From Sphaerolaimus hirsutus (lineage: Eukaryota > Nematoda > Chromadorea > Monhysterida > Sphaerolaimidae), in NCBI GenBank assembly GCA_964036195.1, contig OZ038451.1:30521927-30585926 (forward strand): a stretch of 64,000 nt of DNA, read 5' to 3'. Position 1 is the first letter of the stretch; each line of letters starts with the position of its first letter. The notes beneath the pieces were generated by a model. The model was not told the origin of the DNA. It worked only from the letters and a program-made list of their open reading frames with translations, and made no database searches. Positions 16,371-63,604 of this stretch are shown here, piece by piece. Both the position numbers and the translations under genes were made by a program.

Positions 16371-17518
16371 GGCCCTACACACTACCTAGTTGACAATGAC
16401 GCCAAATGTCAACTGGTTCCCATCCCAATTCAAAGCTTGCTGATGAGCCGACGAGGGACGTTTGAATGCAAACGAGTTGAATCATGTTGCAAATGAAACT
16501 GTCGTTTTAAAAAAATATTGCGGTGTGTGCAATCTACAAGGCGGGCATGACGTAAACACCTTCCCGGACAAGTTCACCACCCATTTTTCTATTTCACTTC
16601 GAATGCAATACCTCCGTCCATAGGGGTGTAATAAAGCTGAAACTTGTATATATAAAGTTGTAAGACCCCTCTACTCCCCAACAATGGGGGAGGTGCAGCG
16701 ACTCACTACAGGGTGGGTCGCCCTATATGCAACAAGTTTTTTGGCGTTTTTGGTGTCCCAAACAGGTTCACCACCCACTTGATTGGCCACACCACAGGAG
16801 CCATATCTCCAGCTGTGATGGCGGTATAAAGCTGAAATTTGGGGGATGTCTTGCCAACAACCCCCTTCACGATCCACCAGTAGGACAGGGTGGGTGCCTT
16901 ACTGAAAAAAATTTAATGAGCAGAACTAGGGTTCATATCTGATTCAATTTTATATCAGGTATGTTCTCACAACATTTAGTTATAATGCAGTTGGGTAGCG
17001 AACTTGTTTGGGACACTTGGGTTGTTCTTAAAAATATTATCAAATTTATTTGCAGTGACCCATGCTGTAGTGGGTCGTCGGCAGCCGCCCCACTGGTGTA
17101 TTGTGAGGGGGGTTGTTGGCAAGACATCCCCCAAATTTCAGCTTTATACCGCCATCACAGCTGGAGATATGGCTCTCGTAGTGTAGCCAATCAAGTGGGT
17201 GGTGAACTTGTTTGGGACACCAAAAACGCCAAAAAAAATTGTTGCATATAGGGCGACTCACCCTGTAGTAATCGCCGCACCTCCCCCATTGTTGGGAAAT
17301 AGAGGGGTCTTACAGCTTTATAAATACAAAGTTTCAGCTTTATAACACCCCCATGGACGGAGATATTGCATTCGAAGTGAAAAAAATGGGTGGTGAACTT
17401 GTCCGGGAAGGTGTTTATATGTGTATACCATAATGCGTATAGTTTCTGGTGAGCAAGCTTTGAATTGGGAAAGGAACCAGTAGACATTTGGTGTCCGTGC
17501 CAACCAGTGTGTGTAGGG
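16371..17518. repeat. 1.15-kb foldback element, expanded GTTGAC family
   Basis: Outer arms GGCCCTACACACTACCTAGTTGAC and the inverted copy ending CCAGTGTGTGTAGGG. Inner arms include CTTCCCGGACAAGTTCACCAC and TGCAACAATTT-flanked TTGGCGTTTTTGGTGTCCC, each present once per arm in opposite orientation. Several frames on both strands (for example around 16671-17290) are mirror translations of the same arm, not genes. Confidence 0.8.
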
Positions 17519-18149: not shown

Positions 18150-18349
18150 CAGTGGTCGATTCCGCAAGTGGTGAAGTAAAATACTATTTGAGAAGTGAAG
18201 GTTAAGTAAAAGTTGAAAGCGAAGTAAAATAATTATCTAATTAATGAAAGTGAAAAGTTAAAAAATAATTACCTAATTTTACAAGTAAACTCATTTGACT
18301 CATTTCTCAAATAGTTGTTTCACGACTCAACTTGCGAAATTGGCACCAG
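18150..18349. mobile_element. Intr-I element, intergenic copy
   Basis: CAGTGGTCGATTCCGCAAGTGG at the left and the complement of CTGGTGCCAATTTCGCAAGTTG at the right, with GAAGTAAAA arms. No coding exon is visible on either side, so this appears to be a free copy. Confidence 0.65.
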
Positions 18350-18599: not shown

Positions 18600-19786
18600 T
18601 TCGTTTTTCTGCTGATCCTGTCAAAACACTGTTTTTTCTTCAATTTTTATCGTCTGTTTGCTATATTCAAGTTTCCGCGTCACTATGAAGAAGTCTGTTT
18701 TGCTTCTGTTTTCTATTCTAAGCTGCCTTTTTATTGTTTGTCTACTGCCGGAATATAGCAAAATACTTTTCACCTCAAGTACGTACCCTAAGTGTCGCAT
18801 CCACCCAAAAACCTACCTAAATATTCACATAATTTGTTCATTTAAACAATACATGGGTTAACAGTAGGTTATATGTTTCCCACCATTCATGTGGACATTT
18901 CGAACAGTCCGTACATTCGGTGGGTTACGGTACGTAAAAATTGGGTCAACAGTACCGTATATACATCCGCGTACTTTAAATCTATGTATTTCAAATACAT
19001 ACAGCCCTTTATCTACATATTTAAATAAATAAGCAACTGGTGGATTACTTTTTGCTTAATCTTCAATTTGCTATTTAAATTTTCCGCCAATTTTTGCACT
19101 GCCCTGCAAATCGCTCACTATGCAGTTTCTGACCACAGTTTCTAACACGATTTTACGTTTACTCTAGAAGTACGTATACTCTAGCACTGAGTACGGGAGT
19201 ATAAAAGTGAACCAGTGTTATGTTATGTATATTTATCTGCATAAGTCCTCGGGTTTAATATTAAATACACGTTGGGGAAGTGTTTTTAAAAAAAGGAAAT
19301 AGCTCAAACAAACCAAATTGTCTGCGAAAACACTTTTCCTCTTTTTACATTTTCCAGAAAAACAATACTTTTACTCACTTTTTACGCAGTGTAAAAGTAA
19401 AAATATTTTACTTTACGTTTTTTGGTACTTCGGCTGAGTATAGTGAAATTACTGTACATTCACGTTTACTTTGGAAAAAAACTCCAGTATTTTTAACACC
19501 TATGTCTCGGAGCACCGCACTGCACCAAGCGAGTTCCCGCTTAGATAAAATATTCAGTACAGACAAACCCCCCCTGCTTTTGCAGCTCCCCCCCACTCTT
19601 GTATAGCTGAACCCAGATTCTCTGTGTGCTGGGGGGGGGGTTAGGGCATTTTTGGAAGTGGGGATAAAATGGACGCGTCTTAATTTGTGTTTGGGGATAT
19701 TGTGGTGCTACAAGTTGTTTCTTTGTGTTTGATTACATTTACATTTACATGTGCGGTTGTTGGTTATGAGATAAACACATGTATTT
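18600..19786. other. Intergenic; degenerate CAGAGTTG-type hAT MITE at about 19134-19505
   Basis: 19134-19505 shares ordered blocks (ACGATTTTACGTTTACTC, GCAGTGTAAAAGTAAAAATA, CGTTTACTTTGGAAAAAAA) with the better preserved element 58483-58967. No target duplication remains. No gene is seen. Confidence 0.5.
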
Positions 19787-19974
19787 TAGTGGCAGTCCCG
19801 CCCTCTGTTAAGTTGAAGGTATGAAGTAAGTTCAAAATGCCATGTAAAACGTGAATCAAGAATCAAATAAAAAGAAATATTTTATTACTTTTGGCACTTT
19901 GCATGACAATTTGCAAATTTGTATGACAATTTGCATGCATTTGTCATGTTACAGAGTGTGGGACTGGCAGCTGG
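19787..19974. mobile_element. Intr-II-like element, intergenic copy
   Basis: TAGTGGCAGTCCCGCCCTCTG at the left and GAGTGTGGGACTGGCAGCTG at the right. ATGCCATGTAAA and TGCATGACAATTTG arms are degenerate. The ends lack the GT/AG pairing. Confidence 0.55.
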
Positions 19975-20233: not shown

Positions 20234-20493
20234 ATTCACCCGATGCCAATTCTGCAAATTGAGAAGTAAAAAATTAGAAGCGAGACTTAGAAATTTAAAG
20301 AAAAGTAAATTTAGAAGTTTTAGTGAGATTTTAAATGTTTGAAAACAAATGGAAGGTGAACAGAAATCACTTAAAAATGAATCAAATTTTTTGTAAATAT
20401 TTTACTTGCAATTTCACTTCTAAATTTACTTCTCTTTGACCCTTTTACATCTCATCTAAAAATCGTTTTTTTTACTTGCGGAATTGTCCTCAG
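20234..20493. mobile_element. Intr-I-like element, intergenic copy
   Basis: GATGCCAATTCTGCAAATTG then AGAAGTAAAA at the left; TTTTACTTGCGGAATTGTCCTCAG at the right. The donor position reads GA, so it would not splice as drawn. Confidence 0.6.
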
Positions 20494-23599: not shown

Positions 23600-26500
23600 A
23601 TGGCCAGCTACGCCCAGTATTTGACTAAGGAGAAGGAGGATGAGCTGAGGAAAAATGCGAACGCTATCGTGGCCTGCGGAAAAGGCATTTTGGCCGCTGA
23701 CGAGTCCACTGGTGCGTTTTACAAGGGTTTTGGGTACCCCTGCGACTATACAGACGGATAGAATATCGGTTCACCACGGGTCTGTGCCTGTCGGCATCTG
23801 AACCGTTTGGCATCTAGATAACGGATCACGGGTTTCCGAGGGTTTGACCCTCGCGATGGCTTCATAGATAGCAAATCTGAAATAGATAGCTGAAAACTAA
23901 ATTTGGGGGTCGCTGGGGCTAAAATATATATGATATATATGGCAAAATTGAGCATAATTTAGCGATTTTAAGTGAAAATCCGGAAAAATTGCTCTAAGTA
24001 TGCTCCACAGAGATACCTAGATAGTTAAGTGATTTGTGGGGCTATCAGGGGATAGTAGCCTCGGGATTGCTAGCTAGCTGAGCAGCCGCCTCCCCCATGG
24101 GACCCCCGAACGGGTCTTAATGCCAAGCGGGTTAGATGCCAAGCAAGCCTACGCCGTCCACCACGGCAGGGGTCTCCAATGTCGGGGGTTGGGTAACCCC
24201 CAAATCGACCACCCCCGTACTGACCCGTATTGAGAAAAGGTTTTGGCTGCTAACCCGGCCCACGAACAAATTCAGCTATCTATCTAGCTCTACAGCTAGA
24301 TGAGTTCACGGGAAATCAGTAATTGGCTTTTCAAGGTGTAGAAAGCAGAAATATTAGAAAAATCACTGTAAAATGACATAGCACACACAAAAGCTAACAA
24401 TAGCTGAAAATAGGAAAAAGGGAAGGAAAATTATCTATTATGAGCGAAAATTGGTGCAAAATTTTCCAAAAATCACCCCAGATAGATTTTCCATTGGAAA
24501 GGACATAGCTCAGCGGCGCCTGGGATAAACAGATACATAGCTGGAGCGTTTGGGGGATACCCCTAACCCACCCTACAATTAACTCGTGCAACACGATTTC
24601 CCTCAAATACCCCCATTTTGCAGGCTCCATGGCCAAACGTCTGGGCCCATTGGGACTGGAAAATACGGAGGAAAATCGCCGCCAATACAGGCAGCTTTTG
24701 TTCACCAGCGACGCCAAGATGTCCGAGTACATCAGCGGGGTGATCATGTTCCACGAAACTTTCTATCAGGTGCATTTTTGATTGTTTTTGAACTATTTTT
24801 GGATTTGAAGGCTTTTTTAGTGAGGAAGTTGTTGGCATGTACACTATTTGGCAACTGAAACATTTAAAGCTGATAAATATGATATAGGTAAACACATTTG
24901 AGTTTACCATCATGGGATTCTGAACCACCTTCGATCGACCTGAAAAATGATTCATAATAGTAGAAACAAATGTGCTCAACTGAAATCTGAATTAACATGT
25001 TCACCTATTCAGTTGACGTCTGTCAACTCCCCAAATCACCCCAACCCCCCCCCCAGAAAACGGACGACGGCAAGCCGTTCGTGCAGCTGCTGCAGGAGCG
25101 CGGCATTATCCCCGGCATCAAGGTGGACAAAGGTGTCGTGCCCCTGCCCGGAACCATTGGGGAGTGCACCACTCAGGTTAGGAGATAGCAGGGTACGGTT
25201 AGCGTTAAAAGTATCGAACGTTTTTCAACTAAACGTGAACTTAAACGTGAAAAATGACCCACCCCTGAGTACAGAAAACGTAAAAAGAAAAAATTCTCCT
25301 GTAGTCACGTATTGTTTACCTCTACGTAAAAGAAGAATAAAATACTTTCTTTCGAAAAAAAAACTTTAGAAAGAAACGAAAAAATAGTACTTTTTCCCAC
25401 AGAAAATGTAACATTGAGTATCTTTCGACTTGATGAGTATTTCTCTTGATGAGTATTTCTTTATGAAATGATATACTATTCTTTGATGTTTCGTTTTTAT
25501 TTGTATAAAAGGGCACTGCTGTCGCTGCATATAATAGTGAAAATAGCTCATATGTCGCTGTGGTCCAGCAGTTAGGGCGCTCGTGGTCTATAGAAGATGC
25601 CCGACGCGGGTTCGATTCCCGCCTATGGCAGTGCATTTTTTGCACTCATTGTACACGCCGCAGGGCCTGGACGACCTGAACGCTCGCTGCGCCCAGTACT
25701 ACAAGGACGGCGCGCGCTTCGCCAAGTGGCGCAACGTGCTCAAGATCAGCTCGCACACGCCCAGCCACACGGCCATGCAGGAGTCCGCCCAGGTGCTCGC
25801 GAGGTACGCGCAGATCTGCCAGCAGGTCAGCTGGGGGGTTGATTGTTTTTGCTTGTTTTTTTTTGTGATTTGTGGCGATACTGAGCTTTTAGGGGACTGG
25901 TGGATGTCCCGCGCCCTGTACAGTGGAAAGTAGAGTCTCAAATGTCATGTAAAGTGTCAATTTAAATAAAAGATTGACATTTTGCATGACACGATAAATT
26001 TGTAATTTTGAAAGATGAAATTGTTATCGGGCATTCAACATTTCAAATTTTCGACAAATTTCACTCACATTTTACATTACATTACAAACTTTTCTGTGAG
26101 TGTACAAGACAAATTTTCTCAGAGTTCTGCAATGGGTACAACGGTTCCATTAGTCTGGTAAATACAAGGGTAATTTGTCACACAGCGATAGCGCACAAAA
26201 ATTCAACAAACCAACAATTGAATCCAGTCGAGCCGATAGCATGAATTGCACTCAGAACGGGCTGGTGCCGATCGTGGAGCCCGAGGTGCTGCCCGACGGC
26301 GAGCACGACATCGACCGGTGCCAGAAGGTCTCGGAGACGGTGCTCGGCTACCAGTACAAGGCACTCAATGACTACCACGTCTTCCTCGAGGGCACTCTGT
26401 TGAAGGTGCCTTGGTTTGAGAGGGAGCACACAGCTTATTGGACTTTGTGAAACTCGTTGAATGCATTTGAGTTCATTGGGATCAGTTTTTTATTCCCGTG

Positions 26501-29500
26501 AACTGTACTTGATAGTCATATTAAATAGATAGAAACGTATATATACATAATAAGATTAGCCAAAAAATCCGTAAAAAAGTAAAAATCCGTGCAGATCGCG
26601 AGATTTGATTTGGACGTATTTGAGGGGGTGGCTCAGGCGCTTGTAGCCAAAAATATTGCCTCGGTTTAGATTGGCAGCTGAGCGCTTAGAAAGATGGATC
26701 GCTGGAGCGTTTTGGTGGGAACCCCGACCCCCCCCAACCACCCCCACCCCCTGGTGCCCATCTACCCTCAAGCACCCCCCCCCACAGCCGAACATGGTGA
26801 CGGCGGGGCAGTCGTGCCCCAAGAAGTACCACTGCGCCGACATCGCCAAGGCCACCGTGACCGCCCTGCAGAGGACCGTGCCCGCAGCCGTGCCCGGTGC
26901 GTCCATTTTTTTGATTTGTTTTGTTTTGGAAATGTTGGGGACAATGCCCTGGAAAATGGCAACGAAACACTCCATCGTAATCTCCATCTCGATGGTTGGT
27001 CAAATCAAAGTTATTGCAAAAAAATAGTTCGTCGCTTGTACGGATGGCGCCTTTTTATTTTTTGTGGTCACGGGTTGGCGACTCAGAAATAATTATTTCG
27101 GACACATAATTGAATGTCAGCCGAGTAAAGTCATTACGACATAATTACCGAGGCGTAAAAGAAGTTGCACCCCTCTAAAAAACCATTTATGCATACTAGC
27201 ATGTAATAATAAGCGTGCATACTCGCACTAGAGTTTAATTGATCCAGCGGTTGAAACGTGAAATTTACGGGTTTGCGTCTGAGTGGCGGAGAGTGCATAC
27301 TGAGGTCACGATTGGAGTGGAATCAAGAGTTCAGGTGCCACTCTCATACCGTGTAAAGAGTCAAATGTCAAGCTGTCGAAAGTCATGCGAAATATGCAAA
27401 TGCAAAAAATGAATCCTGAAAAATGCATATTTGTATTTGTATTTAATCGGTGACATGTGACATTTTACTACAGGGCATTTTGCATGAAATTTTATATTTT
27501 ACAAACTCTGTGTGTGAAATTAACACACGAGCAAGAAGTAAAGATGTCTACTTATTTCACTGCCGTAGTCCCGCACCGTGTAAAATGTCATCAAATATCA
27601 TTTCTACACTCAGCACCGCTCAGACACAAAGCCGTAAAATTTATGTTTCAGCCAGGAGTCAAGCTAACGCTAGTTGATTTCGCCTCACTGCTCTATCACA
27701 TAGGAACAAACAGCTAGCGCTATAAATGCTAGCTATTATTTACGGTGGAAAATCATTTTTGATTTTTCGTAGTATCTATCGGTGAGTGGCACGAAAGTAG
27801 AAATGTAAAAATTCAATATTTTAATTTAATATATTATTTATTCAATATATTATATTTCAACCAGTTTTGACTCCTTCCTACGAAAACCATTTTTTAGTTT
27901 TCACACTGTTGACATGTTAAAAACTGTTGTGTGTGACATCATAAGCTAGCACACAGGAACGATTTTATCATGATTTACGAATCCGTTTGTACCTCGATAT
28001 TTATATCTCATTTCGGTAGTGTTTTTACTTGGGGTTTTTCACCTATTTTGTACATTTTAGTATCTTATTCAAACTTCAATTTTTTCTGTAAACTGCGTTA
28101 ACACGATTTTTATGTGGCGACAATGTTTAAGTCAAGAATTGATAAACTGGACATTCTCATTTGGGATATGAGTGTCTGGTTTGCAATCACTGCATCACAA
28201 TTTTCCGAATATTGACTAATGACAATTTTCGCACAGTTTTCGGCAGCATCAACAATAACAAGGCCGACCCCACATTTTAGTTCACATGTGCAAAAATTGT
28301 CATTTGTCAATGAGTTGTCACTAGGGTTGGCCGATGTTTTTTTAAACGTTTTTTTCATTAAAAAATGACGTCCGAAATGTTGTTTTTTTGAAAACATCGG
28401 CCAAAATTTTTAGTACGAAGCACTAGGTATTTTGCAAAATTTTTGCGCGCAAGCGCGCAATTTCACACACAAATTAACATTGGTGGTTGTTTTCATTGGT
28501 TTTGTGGCATTTTTAGTATCAAAGTATCCATTTCTATGTGCTACCATGGGTTAATAAGCTGTCATATGTTGCTGTACTATATAATATTGAGGTAATGTGC
28601 TTCCATGTACCTCCACAGTGTGTAACTTCACTCCCAAAGTTACAACCTCCTTTTATAACCTTGTTTGATCACTATTCCGTGCCAAACTTTACCTGAAGTC
28701 ACAAACATTTGACTATAAGGCGATATACAAACGATATGTTGACAAAAAATGGATATTTTTGACACAAATCACCACTTATAATGCTATCCCATGGCTCCAC
28801 AGACATTATATGGTCATATATAACATCACAGAGTATTGCCACTGTCTGATATACCTATATATGTTGACACAAGGTCATATCTGGGAGCTTTAAAAAAACG
28901 TTTTTTTTATATAAAAAAACGTTTTGTTTTTTTTAAAAAACATCGAGTTAAAAAAAAACGTTTTTTTCCTTCAATTCTAGTTGCCACTACAGTCATTTGG
29001 TAACGCACATATTTTGGTTTGCATCAGTCATTTTGTTCCTTTGTGCACTTGTGTCGCTAGCGCGCAATTGTCATTCGCACAATAGCGACACAAGCGCACA
29101 AATTCCGAAATGACACGCTCATTTTTGTTTACGTTTTTGTCCCAATTTTGTATGGGAAAAACGTCGAATAACGGCGGGGCTGCAATGGTCTAAGTAAAGA
29201 AAGCATTAAGCCCCGTTTACACGGATTTTTTGTGACGACTCGACAACACTAAAAACTTCGATAAGTTGAGTAAAACGGTGCCATTTTCATGAGAAAAAGT
29301 GGTCAACCATACATTATACCTTGGCGAATATGCATGTCAAATTTCAGAATCGTGCTTGTAGCTCAAAAGTTATTGACGTTCAAAAATTTTTGCCGTTGTC
29401 GGACAGCATTCTAAAGTCTCCCGGCGACAACGGTAATTTTTTTTCAAACGTCTATAATCTTGAGCTACAAGCACGATTCTACGATTCGAAATGCACATTC

Positions 29501-31681
29501 GCCTAGGTAGAATGTATAGTTGACCACTTTTTCTCATGAAAATGGAACCTTATTACTCAACTTATTGAACATTTTAGCTTTGTCGAGTCGTCACAAAAAA
29601 TCCGTGTAAACGGGGTCTTACTAACTCTTGGCTCACCGCCAACACGCGACGTAAATATCGAGGCGCAATCGAATTTGCAACCCTCTAAAAAGTCCATTTC
29701 TGTATGCTAGCTTATAATAATAAGCGTGTAACTACGTCAGCTCGCGCGTTGTTGGCTAATGGTTGAAACATGAAAGTTACGGGTTTGTTAATGGGCAGTG
29801 TGGAGTGGGTCGTAAAGGTCACGTCGCGTTTAGAGCGTAGATCAAAAGTTCAGGTAACATTTATTATGTCGTTCGAATTGTATAATGACTGCAGAGATAT
29901 TAACCATATTCCATTTGAATTTTAAAAAACAAACAAGAAATATTCTCGTTGTCACATTTCACTGCTGTCATTTTTTGTACTTACACAGGTAGGTAAACAT
30001 TTGTTGGACTTTATTCATCTAAATATGGTTACTTTCGTTGCAGGGTATATACGGTCCGATAAATTTTTGTAATGTTATGTATAACTCGAAAATTGCTACA
30101 TAGCCTACTGATGTGCTGTTTATAAACACACCTCGCAAAAGATTACCTTTTCGATTTTATTTCTTCATTAATAAATACAGAATACACTAGCTGACACGTT
30201 GTGCGGAAAGCATGACAGCTCATGGAGTCGACTCGTGATTAAAACATGAAAATCACTGGTTTAAGTGCCTGTTCTCCATAAACATACACACTAGTTTACT
30301 ACCAGTAAACTAAAAATTCAGTAAACTCGTAAATCAGCTTTGAATGGCGTTTGAGTTTACTGGAATTATGACATGAAAAGAACTCATTGTGGTTAACTCA
30401 AACCCCTTAAAGGATGATTGATTAGTTTACAAATTTTCGAAATTTCAGTAGAAAGCTAGTGTGTGTACTGTGTAGCTAAATATTTACATAAATTTTACAT
30501 GAAAACTTTTGCACTTTTCCAACAGTGAGAGAAATGCAATGTGATGAAAGAAAAATGTTTGGTTTTATTCAGCTGGAATATGGTACTGGTACATTTGATT
30601 GTAAAATATACATCCGATGGACTATAAATCAACAGTTCCACAGTACCCCGTAAAAAATCAATCCTACAATAACCCTCCGAATTCAGGCGTCGTTTTCCTG
30701 TCCGGAGGTCAATCCGAGGAAGATGCCACTATCAATCTGGACGCCCTGAACAAATTCCCCGGCAAGAAACCCTGGGCGCTTACGTTTTCTTACGGTAGGG
30801 CGCTTCAGGCGAGCGCCCTAAAAGCGTGGGGCGGCAAGAAGGACCAGATCAAGGCTGGACAGGGCGAGCTGATGAAGCGGGCTGAGGTGGGGTTTTATTC
30901 GAGGGGGGGGGGGGTTGGGTAACCTAGATTTGATAATGTGTTCGAATTTTTTCTCCACTAGAAAAATATCTGAAAATCTATTTTTTCTAGGAACACTCGA
31001 TAATTCGAAAAATAATTCAAATTTTTTAAACTGAAAATGCATTATAATATATGAATAAAATGTAGAAAGACAATTCAAAACTTGAATTTCACATGATGTA
31101 TTTTTGCGGCGAATCATGTGTTTGCGTCGGTACCTTCCATTCCTCAAAACAAAAAGTTGTATTCAAGCCTGAAAAGAAATTTTGAAAATGCAATAATCAG
31201 GTGGAAAAATTCGAGAATTCAAAAAATATTCTAAAAATTCCACAAGTCATTTAAGGAAAAAACTTACAAATTTTAATACTTTTCCTAGAGGGTTTGCTAT
31301 GGCTACACTTGGGAAGTTATGATAGGGAGTCGAATGGCAGTGAATGTTGATTACGCATTTTACGGCGGCTGAAGTTACGCTAGTGGAGAAGTAATTCGAA
31401 AATTTTTGAAGTCAGAAGTAAAAAGTGAAAACAAAGGTAAATTTATAATTTCAAATTTTACTTTTCTTCAACTTTTTACTTTTCACTCCAATCCAAATAG
31501 TTTTTTATTCCTCCACTTGAGGAATAGCCTCTGCCCCACAAACCATAGTAAACTTTTTTTAAGCAACCTACCTTAAATACATTCGCAGGCGAACAGTCTC
31601 GCGTGCCAGGGCAAATATGACGGGCGTTTCGGAGGCGAGGCCGCAAAGCAGTCGCTTTTCGTCGCCGGACACGCCTATTAG
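23600..31681 (+). CDS. ALDO: Fructose-bisphosphate aldolase, class I
   Basis: Cleaves fructose-1,6-bisphosphate to glyceraldehyde-3-phosphate and dihydroxyacetone phosphate through a lysine Schiff base; cytosolic glycolysis and gluconeogenesis. Exons: 23600-23711, 24624-24769, 25057-25176, 25664-25825, 26256-26405, 26788-26896, 30687-30886, 31589-31681 (TAG). The sum is 1092 bases, 363 residues, the family length. In mature numbering (no Met) the catalytic set falls in place: Asp33 (AADEST), Lys107 (GIKVDKG), Lys146 (FAKWR), Glu187 (PIVEPE), Lys229 (EGTLLK|PNM) and Arg303 (SYGRA), with a C-terminal Tyr (GHAY). The start has A at -3 and G at +4. Exons are GC-rich; introns hold transposons but none is an introner. 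A leader exon ending CGGCGGCAG|GTATTT near 23145 is possible but unproven. Confidence 0.97.
23830..24560. mobile_element. Two degenerate GATAGATAGCTGA hAT-related elements, aldolase intron 1
   Basis: About 23834-24112 begins GGGTTTCCGAGGGTTTGACC and ends CCATGGGACCCCCGA. About 24174-24560 begins CAGGGGTCTCCAATG and ends GGAGCGTTTGGGGGATACCCC. Both carry ATAGATAGCTGA motifs like the intact element 22175-22707. A related fragment lies at about 26562-26780 before exon 6. No clear target duplications. Confidence 0.55.
25555..25629 (+). other. tRNA-like sequence (A and B boxes), probably tRNA-derived repeat or pseudogene
   Basis: TGGTCCAGCAGTTAGG resembles a pol III A box, and GGGTTCGATTCCC is a perfect B box with a GCGGG/CCCGC T-arm stem. 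A D-arm GTCC/GGGC stem also forms. The acceptor stem (GTCGCTG with CTATGGC) pairs poorly and no five-pair anticodon stem forms. It is followed by T6 at about 25636. It sits in aldolase intron 3, 34 bases before exon 4. Confidence 0.5.
27140..27335. repeat. Diverged direct repeat, copy 1, aldolase intron 6
   Basis: Shares ordered blocks with 29655-29855: CCCTCTAAAAA, TATGC TAGC, TAATAATAAGCGTG, GGTTGAAACGTGAAA, TTACGGGTTTG and AAGAGTTCAGGT. About 200 bases each, same orientation, no coding content. Confidence 0.6.
28325..28985. repeat. AGGGTTGGCCGATG element, hAT-like, right end lost
   Basis: The left end TAGGGTTGGCCGATGTTTTTT parallels 7813-8211, and the core TTTTTAGTACGAAGCACTAGG matches that element's interior. 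The right side ends in AAAAACGTTTTTTT without a clean inverted end. Confidence 0.5.
29209..29617. mobile_element. Foldback MITE, PIF/Harbinger type
   Basis: AGCCCCGTTTACACGG and CCGTGTAAACGGGGTC ends, flanked by TTA on both sides (29206-29208 and 29618-29620). A TTA/TWA 3-bp duplication with such ends is typical of PIF/Harbinger. The arms pair nearly throughout (GTGACGACTCGACAA, GAGAAAAAGTGGTCAAC), with a centre near 29410. Confidence 0.75.
29655..29855. repeat. Diverged direct repeat, copy 2, aldolase intron 6
   Basis: Partner of 27140-27335 by ordered shared blocks. Confidence 0.6.
30293..30465. repeat. Foldback repeat, CTCGTAAATCAGCTTTGAA family, aldolase intron 6
   Basis: ACTCGTAAATCAGCTTTGAA and TGAGTTTACTGGAAT in the left half; the inverted but degraded counterpart in the right half. 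Confidence 0.55.
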
Positions 31682-37226: not shown

Positions 37227-37458
37227 TACCGGGGTGAATTATTTTTACACTGTTTTTGGCAAACATGTAATTCCAGTAAACTAAAATGACATCCAAAGTT
37301 GATCTATGAGTTTACAATATTGTGAGTTTGCTGGCAGTACACCGTTGCAATTGTTTGGCAGCAACGTCCGCTGCATCGTGTCCATTATTCCAGACGAGGG
37401 GGGGGGGGCGTGTTTTGAAAGGGTAGTTTATTTATTCCTCAGCTCGCTCAGACAAGCA

Positions 37459-37707
37459 GGCAGTCCCAAGCCCTGTAAAGTGTAAAGTAAAGTGTCAAAT
37501 GTAAAGTCAAGTGCAAAGTAAACTGTCAATTCTCATGCAAAGTTCAGTAATAAAAATTTTTCTTTTTTGTTTTGATTGACACTTTACTTTGCATTAGACT
37601 TTACAATTGACACTTTACTTTACACTTTACAGGGCTTGGGACTGCCCCCTGGGGGTATTTCGAGGGCGGGTCAATTCACGGGGGGATAATTCGAGGAAAT
37701 ACGGTAT
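37459..37707. mobile_element. Intr-II element (37459-37650) abutting a solo G-tract end
   Basis: GGCAGTCCCAAGCCCTG at the left and CAGGGCTTGGGACTGCCCCC at the right, with TGTAAAGTGTAAAGTAAAG arms. It is followed directly by GGTATTTCGAGG...GAGGAAATACGGTA, the right end of a G-tract MITE. The two insertions touch. Confidence 0.75.
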
Positions 37708-37997: not shown

Positions 37998-38930
37998 CAG
38001 AGTTGGAAAAACGTATTTACGTTTACCCGAAATACCCGGTTATTCGGGTATTTATACTTACGTTTACATTTACGTTTTCCAAAAATACCATTACGTTTTG
38101 TTACGTTTTCCTGACCAAAATACCCGGGTACTAGGGAAAACGTAAAAAAACATGTGATGGTTCACACGTGCACATGTTTAAGTGGGCCGCACCACCTGCA
38201 GCCAACAATATTCTTACGTTTTTGCATAAACGTAACATGTATACATACAGAAAAGCGGTGTATGAAAAAAGTGACTGCACGCTTGCACTTACACATAGAA
38301 TACTGGGTACATAAATATTCATAAATGTGTTCAAATGCTGAACACAGAAACCTGTTTTGTCTGTTTGTGGAGCCTTGCGTTTATAAATTTTTTGCGATGA
38401 ATTCCGACGACGCAATTGCAACAACTGTGAGTAGCACACGTTTTGAAACTGGCAGGGCGGGTGCAAGCTCTAGTGCCAATCCTAGATTTAGTACGATGCC
38501 CTGTAAAATGTAAATTTCATGCAAATGTCAAAACTCATGTAAAATGCCCAGCAAAAAAGCTAAGATTTGCCACCTTCCAGGGCATTTTGCGTGACTTTAG
38601 ACACATTGCATGCCATTTGACATTTGACAACGCATTTTACAATGTCTGGGACTCCCCCAGAATCACCAGCGTAGTTGTATTTGCCCACACTTATAACAGA
38701 AAGTGGTGCAGATTGAGCGATTGACCCATAAATATATAGGTGAAAATAATGGTATTTTCCAAAGCACAATGGCAAATACTGTGCGTAAAATTTTTTACGT
38801 TTACGTTTTTTTACGTATTCCTTGGTATTTTCAGAATACCTTACATTTTGGTATTTATACTTTTGATTTGGAAAAGGTATTTACATTTACGTTTACATTT
38901 TCCAAAAATACCAGTATTTGCACAACTCTG
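37998..38930. mobile_element. hAT-type MITE, CAGAGTTG ends
   Basis: CAGAGTTGGAAAAACGTATTT at the left and AATACCAGTATTTGCACAACTCTG at the right. The flanks GATAAAGG and AATAAAGG match at 7 of 8. CAGAGTTG is a common hAT terminus. An Intr-II copy is nested at 38470-38660. Confidence 0.78.
38470..38660. mobile_element. Intr-II element nested in a hAT MITE
   Basis: TAGTGCCAATCCTAGATTTAG at the left and ATGTCTGGGACTCCCCCAG at the right, with CCTGTAAAATGTAAATTTCATG arms. Position inside a transposon shows the family is itself mobile. Confidence 0.65.
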
Positions 38931-55952: not shown

Positions 55953-57108
55953 ATCCCCGACACAATCATACACAATAAGGGACTGCATAGAGAACCGTTA
56001 TCGTTAACGAGGCTGCATAGAACAAATAGAACAAATGAAACCGACAGGCTGTGACGACAAAAAAACATGTTATCTTATTGTGTATGATTGCGTCATATAA
56101 ATATACGTTAAATTTACGTTTGTGCTAGGTGTGAGGTAATCGAGATTACGGTACCGACCCAACAAATACCATATTTCCTCGAATTACCACCCCTATTTCG
56201 AATTACCACTCGAAAATAAACGAAAATATGATAATTAACGTGCGTGACTCTTAACACTTTGCATAACATTTTACGAGGTCCATGAGTGGCACCTGGAAGG
56301 AACCTTTTCCATGACAATTGCTGTAACAAAAAAGTACATAGCAATAAAGAGGTTTTTAAATCCGGATTTCCTTGAATTATTTCCCTTGAATTGATCCCAC
56401 TCGAAATACCCTTGTCTTGAATAATTTACATCATGTAGGCAATGTAACTAGTGATGGAAAAACGCCATGGCGCTGGCGCCTGGCGCTAGCGCCAAAGCAA
56501 AAAGCGCCATGGCGCTTTTGGCGCTTGGCGCTATATTGCTCTGGGGTAGTGATGTAAAAGCGCCATGGCGCTGGCGCCTGGCGCTAGCGCCAAACCAAAA
56601 AGCGCCATGGCGCTTTTGGCGCTTGGCGCCTTTTTGCCGTGGCGCCATTGGCGCTTGGCGCCGAGACCTCCAAAAGCGCCATGGCGCTTTTGGCGCTTGG
56701 CGCTTTAATGCCGTGGCGCCATTGGCGCTTGGCGCTCACACTTTGAAAAGCGCCAAAAAAGCGCCATACCATCTGTGTACGATTTCGATAGGTGGCATCA
56801 AATATGCCATCAAAATATGAGATGATTGTTTTTTTGTTCCATCCAGTTTTTCCATCACCTAAAAATTATGGATCAAACTTCAAACATCCAAATTTCATTG
56901 AAATAAAACAAAAAACCCAGCACAACTTCACTTACTTGAATAGAGTAACCTACAGAAACTTACTGCCTTATATGGCATGCTGAATATACACTTTATTTAC
57001 ATTCTATCTATCATATTTATAATATCACATTTATATTTCTGACATTCATTTTTAGAATGCTTATCAGATCGGTGTAAAAAAACGTGCTCCATCACATCAC
57101 TTTTTATT
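55953..57108. other. Intergenic, no gene; GCGCC arrays at 56450-56770
   Basis: 56450-56770 begins TAGTGATGGAAAAACGCC, contains a second start TAGTGATGTAAAAGCGCC at about 56547, and ends GCGCCATACCATC. It is probably two overlapping hAT MITEs. A damaged G-tract end lies at about 56167. Confidence 0.5.
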
Positions 57109-57635: not shown

Positions 57636-58086
57636 TTTTGGCGCTGGCGCTATTGGCGCTTGGCGCCATTGTCCTCTGGCGCCATTGGCGCTTGGCGCTA
57701 CGGTCTGGAAAAGCGCCATGGCGCTTTTGGCGCTTGGCGCTAAAATCGTGTGGCGCCATTGGCGCTTGGCGCCGCGATGGGAAAAGCGCCATGGCGCTTT
57801 TGGCGCTTGGCGCCGAAACTCTGGCGCTTTTTACATCACTACTCTGGGGCCATTGGCGCTTGGCGCTGGGCTTCGAAAAAGCGCCATGGCGCTTGGCGCT
57901 ATTTTTGGGTGGCGCCAGGAACAAAAGGCCCGGCGCTGGCGCTTGGCACTAGCGCCAAAGCAACAAGTGCCATGGCGCTTCTGGCGCTTGACGCCATTTT
58001 CCTCTGGCGCCATTGGCGGTTGGCGCTGGGGTCCGAAAAGTGCCATGGCGTTTGGCGCCAAAGTCCTGGCGCTTTTTCCATCACTA
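57636..58086. repeat. GCGCC arrays, two hAT-type MITE copies joined
   Basis: TGGCGCTTTTTACATCACTA ends one copy at about 57843; GGCGCTTTTTCCATCACTA ends another at 58086. Between and before them are GCGCTTGGCGCC arrays. Ala/Arg/Trp-rich frames here are repeat translations. Confidence 0.6.
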
Positions 58087-58398
58087 AACGTAACTAAATG
58101 ATGTATTAATTGCTGCCAGTTTGTAAAAACGCTACACATAGACTAGTAGTTTGTGTAGATATACCTAGGTATGCCTATTTTATGTCCAAATTTACCTACC
58201 CTGTTGCATTAATTACCAGTTTTGGGTAAGCAAAAGCAAAAGGTATTCTATACAATTATCCTTCACGAAAATTTTGGACGAAATTATAAACCATCTGCGA
58301 ATTCACCCTCAAATTAACTTGGTATGTCTCTAGCCTGCAGAACAAACAACATAAATATCATATCATAAATCCAAACTAAAACATTCCTAAAATATCAA

Positions 58399-61300
58399 AT
58401 GGAATCACTGATTGGCAAGGAGAGTTTCCTGGTGCCAGTCCCAGACCCTATAAAATGCCCTGCTGTCAAATGTCATGCAGAGCATAGTTGTGAAACGTAT
58501 TTACGTTTACTCGAAAAATACGTATACTCGAGTACTGCGTAAATACGTTTACATTTCCTTCCGAAAAAACTCAATTACTGGCGTACTGTTTGAAAGTACG
58601 CGAGTACAGAAAACGTAACTCCAAAAAAATAATGAGGTGCAAAACAAGCAAAAACGATTCAAACGAATTGAAATAGCTGTGAAAATCGCAGCGGAAATGA
58701 TGGAAGTTGCGATGGTAGGGATAACGTTGACTCTCACGTTTGCTTCTAGTCAATTTTACGTTTTTTTAGTACAAGATTGAATAAAAATTATCGCTTTTAC
58801 GTTTTACCTGAGCAAAATACTGGTATTTACGTTTACGCAGTTTTACGCAGTGTAAAAGTAAAAAAATTACTTTGTACTCTGTTTACAGTTTTCTGTGCTC
58901 AGGGGTGAGTAAAAATAAAATACTTTACGTTTACTTTGAAAAAAGTCCAGTACTTTTCACAACTCTGACGCAGAGTGTTATAAGTCATGTAAATGCCCTG
59001 CAAAATGGCAACACGGTTGCTATTTTGCAGGGCATTTTACATGATCTATGACACTTTGCATGACATTTGACATTTTATGGGACATTTTACATGGTCTGGG
59101 ACTGCCCCCAGGGTGAATACAGCCGCTACTTAATTGTGTGCGCGGGAATGTCTATCAGCGTGTCAATATTCTGCATTTTGTGCCATCTCTCTGCGAGCAG
59201 AAGGAGGCCTTGCTGCACAATTTGCTGCAAAGATTTCGACGACGCTATTATACATAAAGGCTCCGTTTCCGCAATGACTTATGCCGTTAAAAGTCCTAAG
59301 TGAGTTTGTTTGTTTGCATACCATATTTCCTCGAGTTACCCCCCCGGGGGTGGTTATTTTTTCACAGTGGAAATTGGGGGGGGGGGGTAAACGAGGGGGC
59401 ATTTGGAAGGGGTTTTTTTTTCGCCAGAAATTTTTTGAACTCGCAGTACAAATTCCTTGTGTGTATGTAACGTAATTACGTAGAAGTAGAAAAATGCTGT
59501 GTAGATGGTACAAATACGGTGTTAAAAAAAAATCTTACAGAATGGAATGGTAATTATTTTCAACTGCCGAAAAACGGAAAGGGTAAAACATTTATTTGCC
59601 GGAAAACGGAAAAGGTAAAAAATTTCATCTGCCGGAAAACGGAAAGGGTAAAAAAAAATTGTCAGCCAAAAATCGGAAAGGGTAAATTTTTTCATGTACC
59701 GGAAAATGGAGAGGGTAATAAAATTTCCCCCTGAAAGCAGAAACGGGAAACGGAAAGTAGGCACCCTAGTACAAACCCGCAGGAAAACTTCGCACTCGCC
59801 CGCCACTTCACTGCTCACTGATTCAAAATGGCACAGCATTTCCCATACGCCAGGTGCCTGTCCCACACCCTGCTAAGTGTACTGTAAAGTGTCAAATGTA
59901 ATCTAAAAGTTAATGCAAATTAGTCAAATGTCATCTAAAAGTTAATACAAATTCGTCAAATGTCGTGCAGAATGTCAAAAGTTCAGTTATACAATTTTTT
60001 TCAATCGACATTTTACATGACAGTTGACACTTTACTTAACACTTTACAGGGTGCGGGATTGCCCCCAGCGCGTAGAATACCCCCAAACAATTACTATAAT
60101 CAACGACAAAATAGCGACCTGTGCTATCGGGAAAGGACCTTAACTAGTGCTGGGAAAATGGCGTGCTCTAGCGTTGGGAATAGCAGTTTTGCCAATGTTC
60201 AAGAGTGCACATTTTATGCCGATGATGACTTCAGGAGGGCAACTGTTATTGGGAATGATGCTGCGACAAAGAGTGCTGCCTGTCAGTTTTTTATAACTTT
60301 TAGTTCGCCAGGGGAAATATTTTTTCAGATTTTTGATGGCGGAAGTTTTCAATGGAGGATTGTTTTTTGTCCTATAATTGTTCCTATATAATGTCATTGT
60401 AGAAAAATGGTATATGAACAGGAAAATTTGTCATTTGGAGAAAAAACACTTTAAACAAGGGGCACGTAACATTGAAAAAATGGTCAATGGTGAAAAATGT
60501 GCGGGACCAATTCTAGATTCCATTTTCGTGCTTCACTTAATTGTTGATATTTTGGATTTATCGACTTTTCAAAATTGACCTCAAACTCAAATGCAGCAAA
60601 TCATTTTCAGACATGCCCATCTCCCAACGACGATCCATCAAATTACAACAAACCCACCAGCCCAGGTGCCAATTCCCCAAGTGGAGAAGTGAGAATATTT
60701 TAGAAGTGAGAGACTTAAAATGAGAAGTGAAATGACACTTAAAAAGTAAACAGCGAAGCAGAATGAGAAGTGAAAAGCAAAATAAACTTTGAAACCTTTT
60801 AACTTTCACTGTTCAAGAAGTTAAGGCCATTCAAGAAATTTTTTTTGAAAACAACGCAAGAAATGAGAAGTAAAATGAAAAGTGACAAGTGAAACAAGGT
60901 ACCTAAGTCAAAAGTTAAAATCGAAATACCGATTTCTTCTAATAGAACGGCGCCGTTCTATTTTTTCGTCAACTTTTTTACCTGCCGTTCTATTGGAGGT
61001 GCCGTTCTATTGGAGGTGCCGTTCTATTGGAGGTGCCGTTCTATTGGAGGCTGCCGTTCTATCCTTTTCGTGGGTGTAAAAAGGTGCCTAAACCTGCCGT
61101 TCTATTGGAGGTGCCGTTCTATTGGAGGTTTGCCGTTCTATTAGAAGAAATACGGTAAAACTTTTATTTCTCATTTCACTTCTCAGATGTTTTTACTTCT
61201 CCACTTGACGAATTGACGCTAGTCTGCCGGAAACCGAGTTATGCTCAAATTCAGATGAAAATGAAAATGGTGGCACTTCACTCAGTTTGGAGTCGAACAC

Positions 61301-63604
61301 AGATTCAAATTCAATAAATTATGCCAGTGCTAGTGATGCATCAGAGGAATCTGCTTGTTTGAAGTCTGATTTCGATAATCAGGTGCCATTTCCACAAGTT
61401 GACAAGTGACGAGAAAATTGCTAAATGCAAGTACAGTTACCATATTTACTCGAATAATTCCCCCAGAGGAATTATTTTTTCGTCAACAATTTTAAGGCGG
61501 ATCAGGGATGTTTCAAGTTGGGGGATTATTTTTTTGCAAAATTTTTCAGCATGTATCTGTCACACTAGATATAAACACATTTTGTCCTGTCTCCCTTGCC
61601 CGTTGGTAGTGCACATTCCATTACAATTTTGCACACCGGATGTGCTGCATTGGCATTCATGAATCAAATTCACACTGACAAAACGGGTCTGGCCATTTTT
61701 TAGACGACACGACAGGTCGACAAACCATTTTTTATGGCATTATAGTTTTGATACCTAACTTTATTTATGTGCATTATTTTTGTTCCGTGGGGCGGGTTAT
61801 TCAAGTGGAGGAATTATTTATCCTCATCTGTTAAACCATTTAAAGGAACTATTCAACTATATTGGAAGAAATAAAAAATTATAAAGATTTTAAAAGGTTT
61901 GTTTTACCATTTTCCACGCCATCATTACAGATGACAAGTGAAATATGATTGATAATATTTTAATCGAGACATTGACGTGTCACTTAAAAGTCCAGTTGTC
62001 ACTTGACGTTCCACTTATAACTGTAAAAACTTACCACTTAAAAGTTTCCTTGACCCTTGTTCACTTGTGGAATTGGCCCCAGGGAAAGCACAGGGTGGCT
62101 CAATTGAAATTGCAAAATATGTGTGAAAGTGGCAATCTTGTAGTACCATTGGCATCTGCTGGTGAGCTCGTTGATTCGATTTGATATTTGTTATTATTCA
62201 TGTCCTTCGCGGACAGCATAATATGCATCAATTTATCAAATTAATTAATTTAATTAATTTGATTTTTTATGGTATTTAATTGTTTTGGAACAATTTGACA
62301 AAAAATCGCATGCGAAATGCAGAGACGCTGACATCGTCCAGCTGCGATGGGAGCAGTTGGAACAGAGCGCCACATTTCACATTCAAAAATGCAGGCAATC
62401 CATCGGACGAACATTCTCCATACCCGATCAAACGCCTTCTAAACGCCAATCTTTTGAATGAGCCAGGTGCCAATTCCAAAAGTGCACCGGTGACAAGAAA
62501 AGTGCTACGTGGTGGATCGAGTTTTAAATAACGATGGAAAATATTCTGGAAAAGTGTGTACATTTGTAAGTGTTCTTTATTCAATGACTTTTCGTAACTT
62601 TTATGACATAAATACTTTTTTCAACTAGATTATTGCATTTTAAAATGTTTCTGGTGCCGGTTCCGCAAGTGGAAAAGTTAAGAGTAAAGAGTTAAGAGTT
62701 GATTAAAATGATAAATGATAAGTAAAGAGTAGAGTTAAAAGTTAAGAGTTGAGTAAAATCATCTGTCGTTTTTTTCAACTCTTAACTCATAACTTAACTT
62801 TACTCATAACTTGCCATTTGTTTTTTTACTCAAGTTTTAACTCTTAACTTTATACAACTCTGTTTTGCTGCGCCGCATAACCATTTGCACATTTTTTGTT
62901 TTGCCCCTATGGTGAAACAAGTTTTGTATTGTGTTGCATTTTATTCATGCATTTTCAAACAAACACACCGAAAAAATTGAGAGAAAAAACTTTCCAAATT
63001 TTCTACCTTTCAAATCGTTGTTAGGCATCGTTAAAAATGGTATTTAGGTACATAAATTGTAAAAATTCAACTTATATAGTCAGCGTACATGATACTCTGC
63101 CCTCGCACTGATGTGTCTCGTGTTGGAAGCGTGCCAATGATTATTAAATCATGCGATTTCTGTAAAAAGATGAAAAAGTCTTCGATGTGAATATGTTAAT
63201 GAATAACATTATAACAACAATCAATTTTATCATCTTTTTATGAAACTTGCACGCGTTAACCATCGTTGGCACACTTCCAGCGGGAACCACGCGTGCAGGG
63301 TGTAAAGTAACCGGAGTATAACTAACGATATCTCTAAATGTGAATGCATATTATTTTTAGTTTAGTTTGACTTGACAGTTGACACTTTCCTTGTCACTTG
63401 TCACTTTTGGAATTGGGCCCAGATCTACTCAGTGAGAATCTATTTAACCCAAAAAGTGGTCAGCCTCAAGGGAAAGTCCGTGTGAAGCGGTCATTGGGCA
63501 TTCCGTCGGGCGGGGCGGAGCCCAATTTGAACAGGCCGGAAAGGAAGGCCACAATGTTGGCAGATAAAGCTGTCACGCAGAGATATAGAAGAAAGAGCAG
63601 TGGG
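58399..63604 (+). CDS. Predicted single-pass membrane protein of unknown function, 5' part (9 exons, 3' end outside window)
   Basis: I do not recognise this protein. Exons: 58399-58431, 59112-59299, 59783-59853, 60069-60281, 60611-60665, 61223-61382, 62083-62161, 62323-62466, 63423-63604. Every junction agrees in codon phase and the sum is exactly 375 codons without a stop. ATG 58399 follows an in-frame stop 33-36 bases upstream; the upstream context (C at -3) is weak. Residues 17-39 are a hydrophobic helix (YLIVCAGMSISVSIFCILCHL) followed by RRR and CCTICC, suggesting an N-out protein with a cytoplasmic tail and possible lipidated cysteines (inference). The tail is Ser/Asn/Asp-rich around residues 195-240 and basic at the end. 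The donor of exon 4 (60281 or 60272) is uncertain. Five of eight complete introns are introners. Confidence 0.72.
58432..59111 (+). mobile_element. Introner (Intr-II) forming intron 1 of gene 3, with nested hAT MITE
   Basis: Donor end GTGCCAGTCCCAGACCCTA and acceptor end GGTCTGGGACTGCCCCCAG are inverted copies at the exact exon borders TTCCTG and GGTGAA (phase 0). TAAAATGCCCTG and TGACATTTGACATTTTA arms. A CAGAGTTG hAT MITE (58483-58967) is nested, leaving an introner of about 185 bases. Confidence 0.85.
58483..58967. mobile_element. hAT-type MITE, CATAGTTG/CAACTCTG ends, nested in an introner
   Basis: CATAGTTGTGAAACGTATTTA and AGTACTTTTCACAACTCTG ends. Flanks ATGCAGAG (58475-58482) and ACGCAGAG (58968-58975) match at 7 of 8. 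Confidence 0.8.
59319..59515. repeat. G-tract MITE left part, gene 3 intron 2
   Basis: TACCATATTTCCTCGAGTTA, C and G runs, then the GTAACGTAATTACGTAGAAG body shared with 48704-48890. No right end survives before the hAT MITE at 59516. Confidence 0.55.
59516..59768. mobile_element. hAT-type MITE, AAACGG-like family, gene 3 intron 2
   Basis: The right end GTAGGCACCCTA is intact and the left is ACGGTGTTAA. Flanks GTACAAAT and GTACAAAC match at 7 of 8. Interior GGAAAACGGAAAGGGTAAA units. It ends 14 bases before exon 3 (59783). Confidence 0.7.
59854..60068 (+). mobile_element. Introner (Intr-II) forming intron 3 of gene 3
   Basis: Donor end GTGCCTGTCCCACACCCTG and acceptor end CAGGGTGCGGGATTGCCCCC AG are inverted copies at the exon borders ACGCCAG and CGCGTA (phase 1). 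The AAGTGTACTGTAAAGTGTCA arm is mirrored at the right. Only 215 bases: the cleanest unnested Intr-II intron. Confidence 0.88.
60666..61222 (+). mobile_element. Introner (Intr-I) forming intron 5 of gene 3, with nested element
   Basis: Donor end GTGCCAATTCCCCAAGTGG then AGAAGTGAG. The acceptor end is the complement of CTAGCGTCAATTCGTCAAG then TGGAGAAGTA. Exon borders are AGCCCAG and TCTGCC (phase 2). A CCGTTCTATTGGAGG element (60927-61156) is nested inside. Confidence 0.85.
60927..61156. mobile_element. CCGTTCTATTGGAGG element with 17-base tandem array
   Basis: TACCGATTTCTTCTAATAGAA and TTCTATTAGAAGAAATACGGTA ends. The interior has six or more tandem TGCCGTTCTATTGGAGG units. Same family as 41962-43883. 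Confidence 0.75.
61383..62082 (+). mobile_element. Introner (Intr-I) forming intron 6 of gene 3, with nested G-tract MITE
   Basis: Donor end GTGCCATTTCCACAAGTTG then ACAAGTGACG. The acceptor end is the complement of CTGGGGCCAATTCCACAAG then TGAACAAGG. Exon borders are AATCAG and GGAAAG (phase 0). A G-tract MITE (about 61438-61860, TACCATATTTACTCGAATAAT left end) is nested. Confidence 0.85.
62467..63422 (+). mobile_element. Introner (Intr-I) forming intron 8 of gene 3, with nested repeats
   Basis: Donor end GTGCCAATTCCAAAAGTGC then ACCGGTGACAAG. The acceptor end is the complement of CTGGGCCCAATTCCAAAAG then TGACAAGTGACAAGG. Exon borders are GAGCCAG and ATCTAC (phase 1; the split codon gives Asp). 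Nested are another Intr-I copy with TTAAGAGT arms (about 62651-62850) and an inverted CACGCGTGG repeat (63080-63321). Confidence 0.82.

Follow-up and report, generated by a model that had tools for sequence, protein, structure and literature searches.

Within the window, by which we mean the whole 64-kb stretch of DNA analysed, we identified three genes. The first, at 5537-15833 on the forward strand (about 5.5-15.9 kb), encodes a protein that matched the GATOR2 subunit WDR24 with an E-value of 6e-74, the reference matched being, we assume, the human protein; the exon reading of its middle part is incomplete, and a phmmer search with one piece of this WDR24 gave no match. The second gene, at 23600-31681, encodes a class I fructose-bisphosphate aldolase in eight exons, which join into a complete frame closed by a stop codon, and 357 of its residues were aligned to the best match, an aldolase chain, with one gap column. 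In the structure database this protein scored 535 bits against aldolase A chains, which we take to be vertebrate, and 514 bits against 1fba, presumably the Drosophila aldolase; the next groups followed at 439 bits (7efs), 434 bits (9led) and 427 bits (6rng, a plant aldolase as we understand it). The aldolase appears to be animal-like, supporting the metazoan host that the first-pass annotation had supposed, as far as the few lineages in that database go. An Rfam scan returned 0 matches and a tRNA scan 0 genes.

The third gene, at 58399-63604 on the forward strand, is the host of the introns described here. Its coding part, which is incomplete at the window edge, consists of nine exons (58399-58431, 59112-59299, 59783-59853, 60069-60281, 60611-60665, 61223-61382, 62083-62161, 62323-62466 and 63423-63604), and its predicted protein carries an N-terminal hydrophobic segment and found no match in a Pfam search. 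When joined, the nine exons gave 375 codons with 0 stops, and the other two frames contained 13 and 27 stops. We then scored the frames with a codon usage trained on 788 codons of the WDR24 and aldolase genes of the same window, with stops counted as a fixed penalty. The model frame ranked top of three in all nine exons, with small margins in some of them, and its absolute score was -68, compared with -180 and -208 in the other frames; the negative value indicates that the codon usage of the host gene differs from that of WDR24 and aldolase. When pieces of the window were drawn at random into 20,000 sets, one set reached the host-gene score and none was stop-free; this null takes no account of the latitude with which ordinary splice sites could be picked. 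The sites of the three ordinary introns of this gene were selected to keep the frame open, and 60 of 1920 nearby splice-site combinations give an open frame, i.e. the choice is not unique.

The remaining five introns (I1-I5) share their borders. With the exon-intron boundary marked by a slash, these read CTG/GTGCCA..CCCCAG for I1 (58432-59111), CAG/GTGCCT..CCCCAG for I2 (59854-60068), CAG/GTGCCA..CGCTAG for I3 (60666-61222), CAG/GTGCCA..CCCCAG for I4 (61383-62082) and CAG/GTGCCA..GCCCAG for I5 (62467-63422), exactly the GTGCC starts and CAG or TAG ends that the first-pass annotation had given. A donor of this kind is not diagnostic by itself, since GTGC donors are ordinary in this genome: we found them in four of the seven aldolase introns, one of them being GTGCCT. 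Branch-point-like YTNAY motifs lie 10-45 bases upstream of the acceptor in all six predicted introns, and motifs this short are common.

Counted inward from the outer trinucleotide, the two ends of I1-I5 match each other in inverted orientation at 17, 14, 14, 17 and 17 of 20 bases. GT..AG intervals picked at random from the window (200,000) averaged 5.1; 3e-5 to 1.6e-4 of them reached the five values, and being window intervals they include the elements themselves. The same measure gave 4, 7 and 7 for the three ordinary introns of the host gene (P 0.78, 0.23 and 0.23), in line with the annotation that only five of the eight introns are element-like, and 4-7 of 20 for the seven aldolase introns used as a control. 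The inverted ends had been described as extending over 20-40 bases, and this stands, with the addition that the repeats are imperfect (arms 74-85% identical over the first ~42 bases in I1-I5). CAGGTGCC occurs 10 times in the window versus 1.17 expected, and six of the 10 occurrences are at counted elements.

We found that the codon phase continues across all five introns, as had been claimed. None of the five lengths is divisible by 3, the introns fall in phases 0, 1, 2, 0 and 1, and the exon after each one contains a stop or stops in both alternative frames.

Further copies were located by running profiles of the element ends across the window; the exonic copies served as the seed for this inventory, whose initial search pattern started from CWG. 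The copies fall into two subfamilies, which have their outermost bases in common and differ in the sequence further in. Subfamily A, with the consensus GKGCCARTCCCA... and runs of GTAAAGTG, includes I1 and I2; subfamily B, with a consensus of roughly GKGCCAATTCCRCAAGTTGACAAGTGA, includes I3, I4 and I5. Elements of both subfamilies are palindromic, MITE-like elements with terminal inverted repeats (TIRs).

Outside the host gene, subfamily A is represented by E1 (5961-6158, reverse strand), which lies within a WDR24 intron, and by five forward-strand copies. E3 (10769-10946) lies, by our own exon reading, inside a WDR24 intron or on its border and is the closest copy of I1; it is a 178-nt near-perfect palindrome that as RNA would form one long hairpin (z -20.2). 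E4 (13643-13837) is located in the WDR24 span, again in an intron by our own exon reading, with GGG at both ends and arms that are 98% identical. E6 (37454-37651) has a damaged left end and is 93% identical to E1 and E4, and these three copies are mutually 90-93% identical over about 190 bp. E7 (38470-38660), outside identified genes, is related to E3 and I1, and E10 (19785-19973) has a weak left end. Subfamily B comprises E8 (18150-18349, reverse strand), outside identified genes and flanked by CAG on both sides, E9 (20240-20493, forward strand), with weak ends flanked by CCG and CAG, and two copies in WDR24, E2 and E5, described below. E1, E3, E4 and E6-E10 are copies outside exons.

Some candidates were set aside. 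Both the long inverted repeats at 6542-8663, which consist of CCGATCCCGATCC, and a foldback element with ends AAATGTCWACTGGTTCC at 16413-17480 came up when ends were first paired; they represent other repeats. Lone weak ends at 6400, 13370, 16122, 17568, 25897, 27332, 27567, 33643, 56252-56295 and 62651 were not counted as copies. The window also contains dense GCGCCATGGCGC / TTGGCGC repeats at 56460-56760 and 57640-58090, and by eye around 36.9-37.2, 42.8-43.1 and 43.4-43.9 kb.

The element copies that make introns in the host gene all lie on the forward strand. I1 (element 58429-59111), flanked by CTG and CAG, is a ~180-bp element interrupted around 58482-58961, where ~480-490 bp of other sequence lie within it. 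The two parts aligned end to end with E3, 48 kb away, at 155 of 177 aligned bases (88%), with the inner stretch of I1, whose edges were set by eye, omitted from the alignment. The insert itself is a different repeat, with inverted ends around AGTTGTGAAA and a possibly duplicated GCAGAG. I2 (59851-60068; CAG on both sides) is near unit length and folds as one hairpin (z -7.3). I3 (60663-61222) is flanked by CAG and TAG and probably carries an inner insertion; its interior has a perfect 20-nt inverted repeat with arms at 60932-60951 and 61132-61151. Units of 17 bp (GGTGCCGTTCTATTGGA) are repeated in tandem at 60980-61150, between these arms. I4 (61380-62082) and I5 (62464-63422) are both flanked by CAG on either side, and I5 has an inner second B-type end at 62651. 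I3-I5 (557-956 bp) exceed unit length and look composite. Given this and the later insertion in I1, the description of each intron as a "single" transposon is too simple, and only I2 comes close to it.

I1 and I2 resemble the other copies over much of the element sequence, I3-I5 at the ends. With copies in the window lying off splice borders, and I1 aligning end to end with one of them, the derivation of the five introns from one family of TIR elements, also proposed by the first-pass annotation, is well supported by these alignments.

To describe the element ends, we tabulated the 13 copies with readable ends, leaving out E6 and E10 with their damaged ends. The outer trinucleotide is CAG or CTG at 23 of the 26 ends, a count to be read with the CWG start of the pattern by which many copies were searched. 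Reading inward, 11 ends start with GTG, 10 with GGG and five otherwise. Exactly one end is GTG in 11 of the 13 copies, and none has two GTG ends; this pattern is also seen outside exons, indicating that the GT donor belongs to the element. Six of the seven exonic copies have their GTG end on the upstream side in the sense direction. The flanks differ between the subfamilies. B-type copies carry the identical trinucleotide (CAG) on both sides in 5/7, as a 3-bp duplication would give. For the A type, the flanks are identical in 1/6, CTG..CAG or CAG..CTG in four and CTA..CAG in one, so no clean 3-bp duplication is demonstrated for this subfamily. With as few copies as these, subfamily A could insert without duplication, could hold the trinucleotide inside its repeat, or could be mis-bounded here.

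The two B-type copies in WDR24 coding sequence differ in orientation. E5 (14198-14679, forward strand; CAG on both sides) corresponds to a predicted GT-AG intron at 14201-14679, across which the codon phase is continuous. The exon upstream of it, in a variable region, is stop-free in the model frame only, and another of the three frames scores slightly higher (-0.1 versus -3.1 for the model frame), leaving this exon weakly supported. E2 (8964-9212, reverse strand), also flanked by CAG on both sides, sits in a conserved WDR24 exon. Once E2 and one CAG are removed, the WDR24 protein is gapless across the join, a result that rests on a join constructed for the alignment. As E2 is reversed, the sense strand reads CAG/GGGCC with no GT at the border. 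We found eight in-frame GT-AG, GC-AG or AT-AC pairs near it; the one nearest to exact removal is a GT-AG pair (donor CCA/GTTCCG, acceptor 9212) that adds 2 residues, and the remaining pairs would cost the protein 3 or 5 residues or lengthen it by 6 to 40. Either E2 is removed in a non-canonical way, or extra residues are left in the protein, or this is a broken copy of WDR24. The orientation model set out below would class an insertion such as E2 as a bad one.

Taken together, these results lead us to propose, with a probability of about 0.83, that the five introns, probably together with a sixth in WDR24, arose when MITE-like TIR elements inserted into exons at CWG. The proposal builds on observed features, namely the borders, the common family, the copies off splice borders and the open frame. 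In this model, a short palindromic TIR element with GTG at one end and usually GGG at the other would insert in an exon at CWG, mostly CAG. If such an element enters a CAG so that its GTG end comes first on the coding strand, the pre-mRNA would read CAG/GTG...CC CAG/, in which the GT donor would come from the element, the exon side of the donor from the target CAG and the acceptor from the second CAG. Excision from GT to AG would keep a single CAG, so that splicing would restore the exon without a frame shift, whatever the codon phase. Splicing is accordingly predicted at the element borders, and we infer that the five positions were intron-free before insertion, i.e. that introns were gained; transposition would presumably depend on a PHIS/NuwaI-type transposase acting in trans. 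The features expected of introners were compared on this basis. Shared sequence reaches both splice borders in I1-I5, the same element recurs outside exons as E1, E3, E4 and E6-E10, and exact removal restores the frame in I1-I5 and, for E2, only without a GT donor.

Several families described before offer points of comparison. NuwaI, a group of the PHIS superfamily, has a CWG target duplication and was found in animal genomes only in the survey that described it, with TIRs of 12-61 bp usually starting with GGG (PMC4482050). The present elements resemble NuwaI in part, through CWG flanks, imperfect TIRs with GGG at 10 of 26 ends and an apparently animal host, and differ from it in having one GTG end and A-type flanks that are not clean duplications; an intron role is not mentioned in the available portions of that account. 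Autonomous NuwaI elements carry a DDE transposase and a Myb/SANT open reading frame. Neither was seen among the ten window open reading frames scanned with Pfam, which yielded no transposase and one sub-cut-off match (E 0.036). The family is probably NuwaI-like; with no transposase found among these reading frames, the likeness does not establish membership. More speculatively, and with rather less than even confidence, NuwaI-type transposons may stand one base away from introners, and this family may be a continuing source of introns in this animal lineage. If so, the CWG target would already give CAG on both sides, and a G to T change at position 2 would turn the border into CAG/GTG; with this change at one end only, about half of the sense-CAG insertions would be born as ready introns.

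Introners have been described before, also from two groups of animals and possibly from more in newer work, and the elements described here are a further family. In the survey of Gozashti et al. 2022 (PMC9860276), as represented in its available text, the ends of introner families, many of them with TIRs, coincide with splice sites, most introners leave the mRNA length unchanged, and one class takes its 5' site from the element and its 3' site from the duplicated target (Fig. 2C legend). The example in that figure shows duplications of 4 bp and no sign of TIRs, and the present family has an animal-like host, TIRs, a CWG target and long palindromes; "Harbinger" is absent from the main text of that paper. 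The same paper reports introners in only two animal groups, with animals and land plants making up 835 of the 3,325 genomes, so that much is left to learn about how animals gain introns. Introners are mentioned once in a 2026 paper on tunicate splicing, without detail in the text available (PMC13326754). The principle that element ends and target double as splice signals is known, and animal cases are rare. In the present family, element end and target together spell both splice sites, and copies that are not introns, as well as a misoriented exonic copy, occur in the same 64 kb. The case would illustrate how mobile DNA turns into an intron, a step from transposon to intron that becomes directly testable in an animal.

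It might be argued that the elements inserted into pre-existing introns, replacing or abutting their ends. Introns do collect such elements: those of WDR24 contain E1 and, as we read the exons, also E3 and E4. However, all five element introns match both splice borders exactly, no element ends are found at the borders of the three ordinary host-gene introns or the seven aldolase introns, and the secondary insertion in I1 is internal, away from the borders. We consider such late arrival in old introns very unlikely, and insertion into exons is the explanation that we keep.

Spread as RNA, through reverse splicing and reverse transcription rather than as DNA, appears slightly less probable again. 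It has a precedent in the symmetrical introns of Hypoxylaceae, which have inverted ends and for which the authors, in the sections available, excluded a DNA route on the ground that flanking duplications are lacking (PMC8469720), and the A-type flanks likewise lack clean duplications. However, the present copies occur in both orientations, in introns and outside identified genes, where they are mostly CWG-flanked, and this fits movement as DNA. According to the same partial account, the Hypoxylaceae introns resemble ours in their pairable inverted-repeat ends and seamless integration into exons, and they differ in being fungal, without flanking duplication and of stwintron origin (PMC8469720). 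Similarly, the introner elements of Amoebophrya, as far as the available text describes them, carry inverted repeats of 8-20 nt by which the two intron ends are joined, with 3-5 nt direct repeats at their borders, whereas they belong to a dinoflagellate and are mainly non-canonical introns, and the authors detected no family-specific inverted repeats (PMC7789003). In the non-conventional introns of euglenids, RNA structure also joins the intron ends; unlike the present introns, these have no conserved GT-AG borders in the descriptions available, and the lineage is a different one (PMC6221363, PMC4770533).

That the host gene is unreal or a decayed copy carrying plain unspliced insertions, to which the missing Pfam homologue, the negative absolute codon score and the exonic E2 without canonical splice sites might point, is equally improbable in view of an open frame of 375 codons that is best of three in 9/9 exons and of a random-set null, blind to the choice of ordinary splice sites, in which 1/20,000 scored as high and 0/20,000 were stop-free.

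We also examined where the copies lie. Seven of the 13 tabulated copies are in the coding sequence of the three identified genes, which makes up ~6% of the window (P 3e-6, or 0.019 if the true coding sequence were four times larger). Without one doubtful copy the count is 6/13 (P 5e-5; 0.065 with fourfold coding sequence), and with E6 and E10 added it is 7/15 (P 1.1e-5). A preference for exons is suggestive rather than clean, because the search started out from exonic copies and the window may contain genes that we did not recognise.

Finally, the identity between the two arms was compared among copies. It is 0.74-0.85 in I1-I5, 0.88 and 0.87 in the two WDR24-exon copies, and 0.71-0.98 in six copies outside exons. 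The first-pass annotation had suggested a recent mass intron gain, which finds no support in the arm identities of I1-I5, and at least one of these introns carries a later insertion. The intron copies are not the youngest of the family, nor do they stand out clearly as its oldest.
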